Source: Mucilaginibacter glaciei
GTDB lineage: Bacteria; Bacteroidota; Bacteroidia; Sphingobacteriales; Sphingobacteriaceae
Assembly (NCBI RefSeq): GCF_014773245.1
Contig: NZ_JACWMX010000002.1
Location: 248,001 to 312,000, forward strand
Direction of reading: 5' to 3'
DNA: 64,000 nt
Part shown: positions 15,267-19,085 of the stretch, piece by piece
Layout: the number at the start of each line of letters is the position of its first letter
Numbering within the stretch: the stretch's first letter is position 1
The notes under the pieces: generated by a model
The model's database searches: none
Told to the model about the DNA's origin: nothing
Seen by the model: only the letters and a program-made list of their open reading frames with translations
Program-made: the position numbers and the translations under genes

Positions 15267-16841
15267 TTAAATCCCAAACACCGCCTCGGCCAAACCAACT
15301 TCGTCTGGCGAGAAAGGCAGGGTATACTTTACACCCATTTCATCAAACTTTTTACCTGTCGATTTACCTATCGCTATCACCTTTTGCTGTGGCTCCAGCA
15401 GGTTATCTGCAAAATAAGCTTCCACATTGCTCGGACTGGTAAATACCAGTATCTCGGCACCACTGGCCTCTACGCCTTCTTCGAGCACGGTTTCGTAAAC
15501 AGGCAGGTCAATAATTTTTGTATCGGCAGATAAGCCGTGCTGAATGCTCCTCATGGGGTTATCAGCACCCGGGAATAAAATGTGGCTACCATTGGCCAAC
15601 GCGGCAAAATCGGCAGCTACATTGGCTGTATCATTACTTTCGCCAACAAAATCGGCAAAGTGGCCGTTGCGGCGCAGCATATCTTCACTGCCTGCTCCCA
15701 TTACCCCAAACTTTACTTTTTTAGGAAATTGCGGGCCGAGTTTAAAGAAATACTCCACCGCATTTTTACTGGTAAAGAACACCCAATCCATATTTCGCAA
15801 AATGTACGAATCAAATTTGGTGATCACCGGCACTGTACGGATCAGCGAACGGGCCTCAATCTGGATCTTATTTTTCTCGAGCGCACGGCGGAAATAACTC
15901 GTTGCCGATATATCGCGCGAAATAAAAACCTTGCCTGCAAACTTTCTGTCCTTTGCAAAACGGGCAAGGATTTTTTCGGTAACACCATCTAATGTATCCG
16001 ACTCAATAAACAATCTGTCCGGGAAATCTTCAGCGCTTTCTGCCTTCGAGGTAAACACTTGAAATTTACCCTCGTCGCGGCGGCAATAAACACCCAAAGG
16101 TAAATGGCAACCGCCACCAAAGGCTTTTAATACGCCACGCTCCATCGCCAGTTCTTCCACCACATCCGGATGGTTCAGGGCCTGTAATGATTCGAATAAA
16201 GCATGATCGCTCTCGCGGATCTGGATAGCCAGTGCACCCTGTGCAGGCGCCGGGATAAATTCTGTAGGGGTTAATTCCTCTACGTGAAACTCGCTCAGGT
16301 CGATCCCTAAACGGCTAACACCGGCTTTTGCCAACATAATGGCATCATACTTTTCATCACGCAGCTTACCAATACGGGTTGGCACATTGCCACGCAATTC
16401 ATCTATCTCCAGGTCGGGGCGTATGGCCAGCAATTGTGCCTTGCGCCTATTAGATGATGTACCAACCAAACCTCCAAATTTAACAGACAGTTTCTGGTGC
16501 ACATCAACAACACCTTTCAGCATCAACAGCAGTTCAGCCGGGTCTTCCCGTTCTGAAACTGCTGCGATAATGAGTCCCGGAGGGTTTTCGGTAGGCAAAT
16601 CTTTGTGCGAGTGTACCGCAACATCAATGGTGCCTGCCAACAATTCTTCTTCTAATTCTTTGGTAAAAAACCCTTTGCCTTCCAGCTTATCAAAGCTAAG
16701 GTTAAGCAGGCGGTCGCCCTGGGTTTTGATGATCTTTAGTTCGGCGGTAATATTAATTGCGGCCAGGCTGTCTTTTACAAAGTTGGCCTGCCATAAAGCT
16801 AAGTCGCTGCCACGCGTTCCAATTATTATCTTTCTATCCAA
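15267..16841 (-). CDS. hemCD: Fused hydroxymethylbilane synthase / uroporphyrinogen-III synthase
   Basis: 524-aa two-domain enzyme covering two successive steps, porphobilinogen to hydroxymethylbilane to uroporphyrinogen III. Residues 1-~300 are HemC: IIIGTRGSDLALWQA start, HSHKDLPT, and the dipyrromethane cofactor cysteine in GGGCHLPLGVY. Residues ~305-524 look like HemD (VFISRDISATSYFRRAL; VFTSPSNVEAYFADN; AIGKSTGKKFDEMG). The start must be TTG at 16841: a stop lies five codons upstream in frame and no ATG precedes the conserved IIIGTRG. A TAAATTTG box lies about 20 bases ahead. Separated from hemA only by the transposase unit. Confidence 0.93.
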   Translation of the reverse strand: MDRKIIIGTRGSDLALWQANFVKDSLAAINITAELKIIKTQGDRLLNLSFDKLEGKGFFTKELEEELLAGTIDVAVHSHKDLPTENPPGLIIAAVSEREDPAELLLMLKGVVDVHQKLSVKFGGLVGTSSNRRKAQLLAIRPDLEIDELRGNVPTRIGKLRDEKYDAIMLAKAGVSRLGIDLSEFHVEELTPTEFIPAPAQGALAIQIRESDHALFESLQALNHPDVVEELAMERGVLKAFGGGCHLPLGVYCRRDEGKFQVFTSKAESAEDFPDRLFIESDTLDGVTEKILARFAKDRKFAGKVFISRDISATSYFRRALEKNKIQIEARSLIRTVPVITKFDSYILRNMDWVFFTSKNAVEYFFKLGPQFPKKVKFGVMGAGSEDMLRRNGHFADFVGESNDTANVAADFAALANGSHILFPGADNPMRSIQHGLSADTKIIDLPVYETVLEEGVEASGAEILVFTSPSNVEAYFADNLLEPQQKVIAIGKSTGKKFDEMGVKYTLPFSPDEVGLAEAVFGI

Positions 16842-16971
16842 AGGAGTACAATTTTACTCTGCAAATTTAATTTTTTATGCACAGTAATACAGTATTAATT
16901 AAGGATATGAAAGTAGGCTGACTAATGGTTGTTTAGCGGATAGATTAACTGTATACATTGCACTGGGCTGT

Positions 16972-16998
16972 CGCGAGTTTAGCGCAGCGTAACTCGTG
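16972..16998. repeat. Left REP-type inverted repeat of the RAYT unit
   Basis: 27 bp, an exact reverse complement of 17624-17650. It is itself an imperfect hairpin (CGCGAGTT/AACTCGTG around a GC-rich middle). The pair brackets the tyrosine transposase gene. Confidence 0.9.
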
Positions 16999-17004
16999 AC
17001 TGGC

Positions 17005-17033
17005 CATGGGTAAAGCTTTCAGCTTTACCCATG
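17005..17033. repeat. Perfect hairpin upstream of the RAYT gene
   Basis: 13-bp perfect stem CATGGGTAAAGCT/AGCTTTACCCATG with loop TTC. Its core AAGCTTTCAGCTT is the reverse complement of the core of the hairpin at 17594-17612. Confidence 0.85.
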
Positions 17034-17051
17034 ATTTATTAATTTAACATC

Positions 17052-17603
17052 GTGAGCAGCAACTACAAATTCCGCAATCAGGAACGACCGCATTTTGTAA
17101 CATTCTCTGTCATCCGATGGATTGACGTATTTACCCGGCGCGAATACAAAAATATCCTTGTGGCAAGCTTGAGCTATTGCATAAAAAACAAGGGGCTTGA
17201 ACTTTATGCATGGGTTATGATGAGTAATCATATTCACCTAATCATCGGCACTAATAACAAACCGATGCAGGATATTTTAAGGGATATTAAAAGGCACACT
17301 TCAAAAGCAATCATTAAAGCAATTATCGACAACCCTCAGGAAAGCAGAAAAGACTGGCTGATCTGGTTTTTCGAACGGGATGGGAAGAAAAACCCTAACA
17401 ATGAATTTTACCAATTTTGGCAGCAAGGCAACCATCCAATTGAATTATGGAGCGATGAGGTGATCACGCAAAAGCTGGATTATATTCACCATAATCCGGT
17501 TAAAGCAGGATGGGTAGATATACCAGAGCATTATCTTTACAGTAGTGCACGCGATTACGCAGGTGAGAAAGGTTTAATTGATGGATTGCTTTTGTTAAGC
17601 TGA
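17052..17603 (+). CDS. REP-associated tyrosine transposase (RAYT, Y1_Tnp)
   Basis: 183-aa single-domain HUH nuclease of the IS200/IS605-related REP-associated family, which cuts and joins single-stranded DNA at hairpins. The HUH motif is NHIHLIIG near residue 60, and the C-terminal LDYIHHNPVKAGWV segment is characteristic and carries the region of the catalytic tyrosine. The start codon is GTG. The gene is flanked by a perfect inverted 27-bp repeat, and its stop codon TGA lies in the loop-side of the downstream hairpin. It is on the opposite strand to the heme genes and interrupts the hemA-hemCD gap. Confidence 0.9.
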   Translation: MSSNYKFRNQERPHFVTFSVIRWIDVFTRREYKNILVASLSYCIKNKGLELYAWVMMSNHIHLIIGTNNKPMQDILRDIKRHTSKAIIKAIIDNPQESRKDWLIWFFERDGKKNPNNEFYQFWQQGNHPIELWSDEVITQKLDYIHHNPVKAGWVDIPEHYLYSSARDYAGEKGLIDGLLLLS

Positions 17604-17612
17604 AAGCTTAAC
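17594..17612. repeat. Hairpin over the RAYT stop codon
   Basis: 8-bp perfect stem GTTAAGCT/AGCTTAAC with loop GAA. The TGA stop of the transposase lies at its centre. Inverted counterpart of the hairpin at 17005-17033. Confidence 0.8.
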
Positions 17613-17623
17613 TTCATGTATCC

Positions 17624-17650
17624 CACGAGTTACGCTGCGCTAAACTCGCG
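17624..17650. repeat. Right REP-type inverted repeat of the RAYT unit
   Basis: 27 bp, an exact reverse complement of 16972-16998, located 20 bases after the transposase stop. Confidence 0.9.
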
Positions 17651-17690
17651 GGAGCGATGACTAATAAGCGTGAGCAAGAAAACTTAAGTA

Positions 17691-18917
17691 TTAATTATTA
17701 TTGATCAGGATATCCTTGGCCATGATCATAGGTACGCTGATGTACTTCTTTTCCATGTAGTTCATCACTTTTTCCAGGATCTCGCGCGATTCTTTATCCA
17801 TCCCCTGCACCTCTTCGGCAAATACGGTATTTACGGCGTTATTACGGATCTCTTTGATCTTCTCAGGCACCTGGCGCATCGCCAGCTCAATTTTACGTTG
17901 TTTCAGCATCACCAGAAACTCGGCAATATTTTGTTCGATAATCGCTTCGGCATGCACCAGTTCATGGTAACGTTCCTGCAGGTTTTTCTTAGCAACCTCG
18001 TTCAATGAATGTACCTCAATGAAGTTTACATCATGTTGCTCTAAAACCTCCGGTGCGGTATCATTAGGGATAGCCAGATCAACAATGGTTTTCTTGCCTT
18101 CCTCGCCTTGTAATAACGAAGTATATACTTCTGCTGTAATAATTGGGTCAATTGCAGACGTACAGGTGATAATAGCATCAAACCCTTTATTAAAGGTTTT
18201 CAGGTCGGCTAAATCAAAAGCCTCACCGCCTAAATCTGCCGCTAATTTTTGGGCATTGGCTAGCGTACGGTTAAATACCGAAAAATTAGAGAATTTATGT
18301 TTTTGCAGATACTTGGCAATATTTCTGTTGGTTTCACCTGCGCCTATGATCAGGATGCGTGCGTTAGTACAAAGCTTCAAATCGCGCAACTTGCGGTAAG
18401 CCAACGATACCACGGAAATAGGATTTTTTGAAATATTGGTATGCGTGTAAACCTCTTTAGCGGTTTTCACAATGCAGTTCATCACCACTCGCAACGAGTC
18501 GCCGGTCAGGCCTGCTTCTCTGCAACTATCGTAGGCTTTACGTAACTGGGCTAAAATTTCTTTTTCGCCAACAATTAAGCTTTCTAAAGAGCATGAGGTG
18601 CGTAACAAATGATTCATTGCCTCCTGCCCTTCATAAATAGAAGCTGCCTCTATAAAGGCACTGGCTGAATGCGTGCAAAGACCCATTTGAAGATCTTGCA
18701 GAAAAGCATGAGCAAACTCTTTGTCAACAATTTGCGGTGTCGACATTACGAACTCGACACGGTTACAGGTAGAAAGGTAAAAGATCTCTGAAATACCAAA
18801 ACGTGCTTTAGCATCACGAAGTTTTTCGGTCAGATTTTCCTGGCACATTACCAACTTCCCCAATTCCTTCAGCTCAATGTGTTTATGCGTAAAAGCTATT
18901 ACCTTTAGATACTTCAA
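17691..18917 (-). CDS. hemA: Glutamyl-tRNA reductase
   Basis: NADPH-dependent reductase of glutamyl-tRNA, the committed step of heme synthesis by the C5 route. The catalytic Cys is in FYLSTCNRVEF, the tRNA/NADPH region has SCSLESLIVGEKEILAQ and ARILIIGAGETNRNIA, and the C-terminus forms the long dimer helix. The chosen start is TTG at 18917, giving 408 aa and placing the catalytic Cys at residue 51, as in the family. An ATG 57 bases upstream (18974) is in frame, but it lies upstream of a TACTTTTG promoter box and would add a non-family peptide. First gene of the heme cluster. Confidence 0.95.
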   Translation of the reverse strand: MKYLKVIAFTHKHIELKELGKLVMCQENLTEKLRDAKARFGISEIFYLSTCNRVEFVMSTPQIVDKEFAHAFLQDLQMGLCTHSASAFIEAASIYEGQEAMNHLLRTSCSLESLIVGEKEILAQLRKAYDSCREAGLTGDSLRVVMNCIVKTAKEVYTHTNISKNPISVVSLAYRKLRDLKLCTNARILIIGAGETNRNIAKYLQKHKFSNFSVFNRTLANAQKLAADLGGEAFDLADLKTFNKGFDAIITCTSAIDPIITAEVYTSLLQGEEGKKTIVDLAIPNDTAPEVLEQHDVNFIEVHSLNEVAKKNLQERYHELVHAEAIIEQNIAEFLVMLKQRKIELAMRQVPEKIKEIRNNAVNTVFAEEVQGMDKESREILEKVMNYMEKKYISVPMIMAKDILINNN

Positions 18918-18940
18918 AGCAGTTTTTATTTTCGACCCAA

Positions 18941-18968
18941 CAAAAGTAACATACCAAGCAGGATGCAA
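18941..18968 (-). promoter_or_regulatory. Promoter for hemA (-7 box TACTTTTG)
   Basis: On the minus strand TACTTTTG lies at 18948-18941 and a TTG at 18968-18966, with a 17-base spacer that is shorter than ideal. Transcription would begin near 18935, giving a leader of about 18 bases to the TTG start. Confidence 0.5.
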
Positions 18969-19085
18969 TGTCAACGCTATGTCAAACAGAAGTATTTAGA
19001 ATGTTTATAAATTGAGCCGAAATGCTAAAAAAACCCATCACATTTCGCTATAAATTCGTTTTTTAAAATATCTGAAGCGTCAAAA

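Follow-up and report, generated by a model that had tools for sequence, protein, structure and literature searches.

A REPtron-like RAYT unit between hemA and hemC of Mucilaginibacter glaciei, probably an old resident of its site

Anatomy of the RAYT-REP unit

The DNA analysed is a stretch of 64,000 nt of Mucilaginibacter glaciei (contig NZ_JACWMX010000002.1, positions 248,001 to 312,000), here called the window and numbered from its first letter. Between hemA and a hemC-hemD fusion gene it contains a gene for a REP-associated tyrosine transposase (RAYT, or TnpA-REP) with an inverted REP at either end. Genomes and loci used for comparison are denoted by G and L numbers. The following features were identified.

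15267..16841, minus strand: hemC-hemD fusion gene, flanking (Pfam Porphobil_deam and HEM4)
16862..16869, minus strand: TAnnTTTG promoter-like box of hemC, outside the unit (box position across gaps)
16967..17655, no strand given: whole RAYT-REP unit (REPtron-like), 689 bp, GCT foot to AGC foot
16967..17001, plus strand: left REP, foot GCTG and bulged hairpin, head TAGCGCAGCGTA (R1 78.3 bits, fold, family covariation)
17005..17033, plus strand: left inner hairpin, 13-bp stem, loop TTC (repeat and fold analysis)
17052..17603, plus strand: RAYT (TnpA-REP) gene, 183 aa, GTG start, NHIH and YIHHNP motifs, intact (NF047646, PF01797, 4ER8 fold match, low pN/pS)
17594..17612, no strand given: right inner hairpin, 8-bp stem, containing the RAYT stop codon TGA at 17601-17603 (repeat and fold analysis)
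17621..17655, minus strand: right REP, inverted, foot GCTC (R1 78.1 bits)
17691..18974, minus strand: hemA (glutamyl-tRNA reductase), flanking, tail to tail with the RAYT gene (Pfam GlutR domains)

The initial annotation had described a RAYT flanked by inverted REPs between hemA and hemCD, and this was confirmed by repeat analysis, by the covariance model R1 and by family matches. The 27-mer at 16972-16998 recurs in exact reverse complement at 17624-17650 and is found once on either strand of the window. These 27-mers bracket the gene as claimed, but the true limits of the unit are wider, at 16967 and 17655; they fall where the REP profile breaks off sharply and match, within a few bases, the limits of most alignments among units at different places. 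When extended, the inverted pair measures 32 nt with 94% identity. The small hairpin proposed on each side was also found, as was the RAYT stop codon inside the downstream one.

Model R1, whose training set includes the two REPs of the window, gave two strong matches in the window, at 16967-17029 (plus strand, 78.3 bits) and 17593-17655 (minus strand, 78.1 bits), and two weaker ones of 15-16 bits which are the inner hairpins read on the opposite strand. Folded as single-stranded DNA, the left end (67 nt) reached a z-score of -7.5 and the right end (66 nt) one of -4.7, with none of 200 shuffles equally stable in either case. The left 35-nt REP alone folds more weakly (z -2.2, 8 of 200 shuffles equally stable). 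At the gathering score, Rfam matches in the window consisted of two tRNAs only.

The RAYT gene and its product

The RAYT protein scored 99.1 bits against NF047646, the model for REP-associated tyrosine transposases (cut-off 80). Residues H60, H62 and Y144 are invariant across 19 RAYT proteins and correspond to the HUH motif and the single catalytic tyrosine. The predicted structure has a mean pLDDT of 77.7, with the C-terminal 40 residues mostly below 50. Its best fold match was 4ER8, the E. coli TnpA-REP bound to a REP hairpin (E 1.4e-5, TM 0.58/0.63), followed by the transposases of ISDra2 and IS608; with an rmsd of 5-15 Å these matches concern the fold and not the detail. A phmmer search of the PDB sequences with the single protein gave no match at E 0.001. 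The RAYT profile retrieved 4ER8 at E 6e-6 over the whole chain, though single stretches reached only 0.17 and 0.48, and ISDra2 at E 0.0017.

Close relatives found by the RAYT search were mostly from Mucilaginibacter, and no RAYT in the other genomes searched exceeds 82% identity to that of the window. Its own genome (4.6 Mb, 22 contigs) has one intact RAYT copy; three others, partial or broken and 39-50% identical, belong to other subfamilies (C18:447767-448255, C18:208295-208651 and C11:67123-67488). The median pN/pS was 0.137 (range 0.05-0.214) over 15 RAYT genes and 105 pairs, and 0.135 among the seven hemA-site genes (21 pairs); these ratios are rough, as most pairs are close to synonymous saturation (lowest hemA-site pS 0.67). 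G055 was excluded from this set, its internal stop being dropped by MAFFT with a shift of the codons. The values suggest that selection constrains the gene for as long as it persists.

The REP family

From the fetched loci 116 distinct REP flanks were gathered, selected for no more than one mismatch in six inner pairs. The REP profile begins abruptly at the foot, which reads GCTG in 79 copies and contains CT in 113. Only two of the 116 have GT[AG]G near the foot, and the family is not one of canonical GTAG REPs. Two outer pairs outside the selection were paired more often than in shuffles, pair -3/25 in 114 of 116 copies (85.0 in shuffles) and pair -4/26 in 109 (93.9 in shuffles); a perfect inner stem of at least five was present in 104 copies, compared with 22 shuffled. 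Two bases of the stem are unpaired, of which the T is invariant in the 116 copies and the G as well, the latter having been required by the search expression itself.

The two-hairpin structure was assessed on 53 diverse copies, from which R1 was also built. In these, 96.0% of the cells were paired versus 83.5% in shuffles, a favourable figure since the 53 were picked by hand from 66 and the 13 dropped included decayed copies. Two-sided changes occurred at 14 of 21 pairs, and slid controls reached at most 38%. The loop of the inner hairpin, TTC or TCC when read inward, was identical at both ends in the eight units readable at both ends (G000, G020, G041, G053, G055, G062, G069 and G107), and mixed in REPINs of G023, G045 and G077. 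Near a RAYT gene with an internal stop in G055 (L108/L223), three tandem REP-hairpin repeats adjoin the gene, 99 bp apart.

In the M. glaciei genome 12 R1 matches were found. Two are the unit itself and the other ten, from 76 to 27 bits, are mostly weak. The 23-nt core recurs at two further places with one and three mismatches, and across the 22 contigs there is no other exact copy of the 27-mer. R1 matches occur in 114 of 149 genomes of the genus (E 0.01). Out of 201 genomes drawn from the order, 44 matched at E 1e-4, of which 34 are Mucilaginibacter; among the other ten only G301 was strong. This genome, of the same family and another genus, has 14 REP matches at E 1e-4 or better (best 4.3e-15), and the REP family may therefore have crossed genera.

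REPINs, here inverted REP pairs with a short spacer at dispersed places, were found in G044, G023, G045 and G036 and in the M. glaciei genome itself (C18:368149-368260). Of 20 REPIN places fetched, a script recognised one symmetric pair and the other 19 were read by eye. Several dispersed REPINs among L272-L286 (G077, G033, G030), for instance L276-L281 and L284, have unlike ends, one with the TAGCGnAGCGTA head and the other a short-loop hairpin, on the same foot.

REP number and RAYT presence

The RAYT clade of the window, defined at E 1e-80 or better, is present in 36 of the 149 genomes. All 36 have REPs, with a median of 24 per genome among the matches listed (best 36 per genome). The median among the matches listed was 4 in the 94 genomes with other RAYTs only, and 0 in the 19 genomes without any RAYT match; the counts use strict filters. 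REP matches persist in 78 of the 113 genomes that do not carry this clade. The Mann-Whitney test gave 1.1e-10, which overstates the evidence because kinship is ignored. REP number follows the RAYT in the genus, as a specific enzyme-substrate pair predicts.

The hemA site across the genus

Of 148 genomes with a HemA match, the hemA 3′ region was fetched for 110; some of the other 38 end at a contig end there. A RAYT unit follows hemA in 10 of these 110 Mucilaginibacter genomes, in one orientation in all ten, with the gene intact in seven and broken in G053, G055 and G077. Eleven further genomes lack the RAYT there but have a REP or REPIN, oriented alike, 4-20 bp past the hemA stop; the matches of G071 (19 bits) and G078 (25 bits) are weak, and the REPINs of G023, G044 and G045 are in effect the unit minus its gene. 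Ten others (G001, G015, G024, G031, G039, G047, G052, G056, G111 and G121) have REP matches farther off, in the opposite orientation or of a GAAG type, and GAAG-stem REPs were not counted as relics of the RAYT unit. The R1 search found no REP match in 79 of the 110 gaps. The nearest HemA relatives of M. glaciei, G112 and G114, lack both RAYT and REP at hemA.

Other sequences were also seen in this region. In G015 and G052 (L113, L114) a different REPIN with a GAAG stem and a CTGG foot lies about 117 bp after hemA, and single GAAG-stemmed REPs follow hemA in G024, G031 and G121 (L124, L112, L117), which means that the REPs arriving there are not all of one type. The hemA-hemC gaps of G145 (L103) and G064 (L099) hold an insert of about 500-750 bp with a palindrome-like TTACTTTCTTTTCTCTCAAAAGAAAGT stretch, without a Rfam match at the gathering score; L066 and L076 share about 250 bp of this insert at 78%. 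A small ORF, membrane-protein-like by eye, is present in the gap of G007 and G056 (L098, L102).

On the HemA tree the genomes with a hemA-site unit did not cluster (9 changes, shuffled mean 9.3, 264 of 500 shuffles as low) and were spread over three HemA lineages with a weakly supported backbone. A single old gain followed by many losses is compatible with this scatter, and so are repeated gains. The RAYT tree did group the hemA-site units (6 changes against a shuffled mean of 9.1, with 2 of 500 shuffles as low), a result made easier by related rows, in a tree whose base is mostly without resolution. Each of the five other sites with several units forms one branch of the RAYT tree, and its genomes are also together on the HemA tree.

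That the 3′ end of hemA is a hot spot, at which units arrived several times independently, would agree with the scattered HemA tree and with the GAAG-stemmed REPIN and single REPs that lie there as well. The single orientation of all ten units and their clustering on the RAYT tree argue against it, and we consider repeated arrival rather unlikely, though it would be compatible with the rest of the explanation preferred below. One old gain followed by many losses is the simplest reading of the site; it is less sure than the identity of the unit, its link to the REPs and its age. The unit at hemA is probably an old resident.

Units at other sites

By their flanks, 38 units in the genus fall into 17 sites, with 10 units at hemA, then 5, 5, 3, 2 and 2, and 11 single ones. 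The comparison of sites took in roughly 1.6 kb of flank, or less where a contig ended, and some of the single sites may therefore be identical. Most alignments between units with unlike flanks have both limits inside the unit or no more than a few bases from the REP feet.

Two of these sites were examined for an empty state, and an empty counterpart was found for both. The first lies between genes that we take from their sequence to be DUF4349-like and comB-like, where G048 and G056 carry a unit. Ten of the other 16 genomes searched have the site empty, with the genes overlapping by a few bases or 5-17 bp apart; in the remaining six, the M. glaciei genome included, the search did not find the DUF4349-like gene at the site. 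G048, with its unit at this new site, retains a lone REP and hairpin at hemA. The second lies between presumed dinB-like and GNAT-like genes, likewise named from sequence, and is occupied in five genomes, none of which has a REP match at hemA; G063 has a broken copy after dinB with a different neighbour. Only G069 (71% complete) has this site empty, with the genes 117 bp apart, and its unit sits at hemA. The neighbourhood was not comparable in 13 of 20 genomes.

With these two empty sites in relatives, whole units seem to change place. They could do so by transposition, or by transfer between species with recombination. In the excerpts available from the literature, REPtrons apparently do not move whole (PMC6006769), and a second RAYT at a novel site in some strains is ascribed to duplication or horizontal acquisition (PMC3686654). 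A stronger version is that the unit is a true mobile element transposing whole, with its cut site at the CT of the GCTG foot, ends and mechanism common to units and REPINs, and the hemA-hemC gap as the ancestral home, the source of the units at 16 or more other sites. This we put forward tentatively, as a possibility somewhat short of an even chance.

Relation to the heme genes

A TAnnTTTG box, presumably the Bacteroidota promoter element, was sought in 34 hemA-hemC gaps, a subset of 69 with hemC next in line that comprises eight gaps with the unit and 26 of up to 437 bp. It starts 25-33 nt before hemC in 31 of the 34, seven of eight with the unit and 24 of 26 without, as a raw count with no chance control. 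In the window the unit lies upstream of this box, which is placed between unit and hemC. The initial annotation had supposed that the insert cuts the heme cluster and may affect hemCD. This received no support, the unit being probably old at the site and the promoter-like box lying on the hemC side; an effect of the unit on the heme genes is not supported.

Retention of the unit as a regulator of the heme genes, with the REPs serving, for example, to terminate transcription or stabilise mRNA between hemA and hemC, would account for the REPs that persist beside hemA in 11 genomes without a RAYT there. It is improbable in view of the 79 gaps without any REP match, the presence of the unit at 16 other sites with different flanking genes and the promoter-like box of hemC itself. 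Slightly more doubtful still is a recent mobile-element insertion in M. glaciei with harm to the heme cluster. In its favour, G112 and G114, closest by HemA, lack the unit and the flanking REPs are nearly perfect copies of each other; it is made unlikely by the ten of 110 genomes that have the unit at this place in this orientation and the 11 more with a REP in place, and also by the divergence of the RAYT from those of the other genomes searched (at most 82% identity) and by the retained box.

The earlier suggestion that a 27-mer without further copies, together with an insert shared by all relatives, would speak for domestication was borne out in its first half, with no other exact copy in the genome, and not in its second, the insert being absent from some relatives (G112, G114). 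The truth lies between recent insertion and full domestication.

Comparison with known systems

By its motifs and the published description, the RAYT appears to fit the little-described Bacteroidota subclass 2.6 of TnpA-REP (group 5 of Bertels). In PMC6006769 this subclass is characterised by its occurrence in Bacteroidota, a median length of 179 aa, the motifs NHxH, WQ and YIHxNP, and flanking atypical structures with copies elsewhere and no GT[AG]G. The window RAYT has FWQQ and YIHHNP, one letter off the subclass motif YIH[QN]NP, and several relatives have YIHNNP. The structures are there only termed atypical and were found by manual inspection, as far as that text goes (PMC6006769), whereas here the repeat family, its covariation, the GCTG foot, the second hairpin and the REPIN forms are worked out and moves of the whole unit are indicated.

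The unit resembles the REPtrons of E. coli, Stenotrophomonas and Marinomonas, as set out in the excerpts of PMC8266576 and PMC2817692, in its Y1 HUH enzyme and in the inverted REP pair around the gene; the bulged hairpin of E. coli and cut sites at CT are further points of likeness. It differs in the foot, GTAG there and GCTG here, with the CT inside the foot. According to the accessible part of PMC8266576, the E. coli and Stenotrophomonas enzymes cut at CT beside the REP, and the E. coli enzyme requires GTAG and the stem bulge. REPINs as described in the portion of PMC3116915 available share the two inverted REPs, the short spacer and the dispersal; those found here are in Bacteroidota, are low in number and include several copies with unlike ends. 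No publication on Mucilaginibacter REPs or REPINs was among the literature matches listed.

An ordinary IS200/IS605 insertion sequence, to which the Y1 fold, the end hairpins and the ISDra2 and IS608 fold matches would lend themselves, is hardly credible given 22.9 bits for the IS200 model NF033573 (cut-off 55) where the REP model passes, a single intact copy in the genome in place of many near-identical ones, and inverted ends, which known members lack according to the part of PMC2817692 consulted.

Preferred explanation and significance

We are fairly confident that the locus is a REPtron-like unit, composed of a Y1 HUH RAYT and the end REPs that it most likely recognises, taking its identity, its link to the REPs and its age together. 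The small number of REPs in the M. glaciei genome and the three broken RAYTs among the ten at hemA count against this explanation. Arrival of the unit's ancestor in the hemA-hemC gap probably dates from the early days of the genus. Some lineages would since have inherited it at hemA, others would have lost it there or kept just a REPIN or a single REP, and in further lineages it would live elsewhere. The RAYT would bind the bulged REP hairpin in single-stranded DNA, cut at the CT of the foot, which is the edge of the unit, through Tyr144 of the YIHHNP motif, and the cut ends would be joined into a new place. Short REP and REPIN copies may spread often in this way and the whole unit rarely. The data show directly the anatomy, the stem covariation, the gene family and predicted fold, the tie of REP numbers to the RAYT, the common site and the empty sites elsewhere. 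Cutting, choice of strand and transposition, like a single old gain behind the common site, are what we infer from these patterns.

This Bacteroidota genus offers one common and probably old site, 17 sites in total, two empty sites and REP numbers that track the enzyme. For a subclass whose repeats were only termed atypical, a defined REP substrate would become available, and whether a RAYT moves its own gene becomes testable in ordinary soil bacteria.
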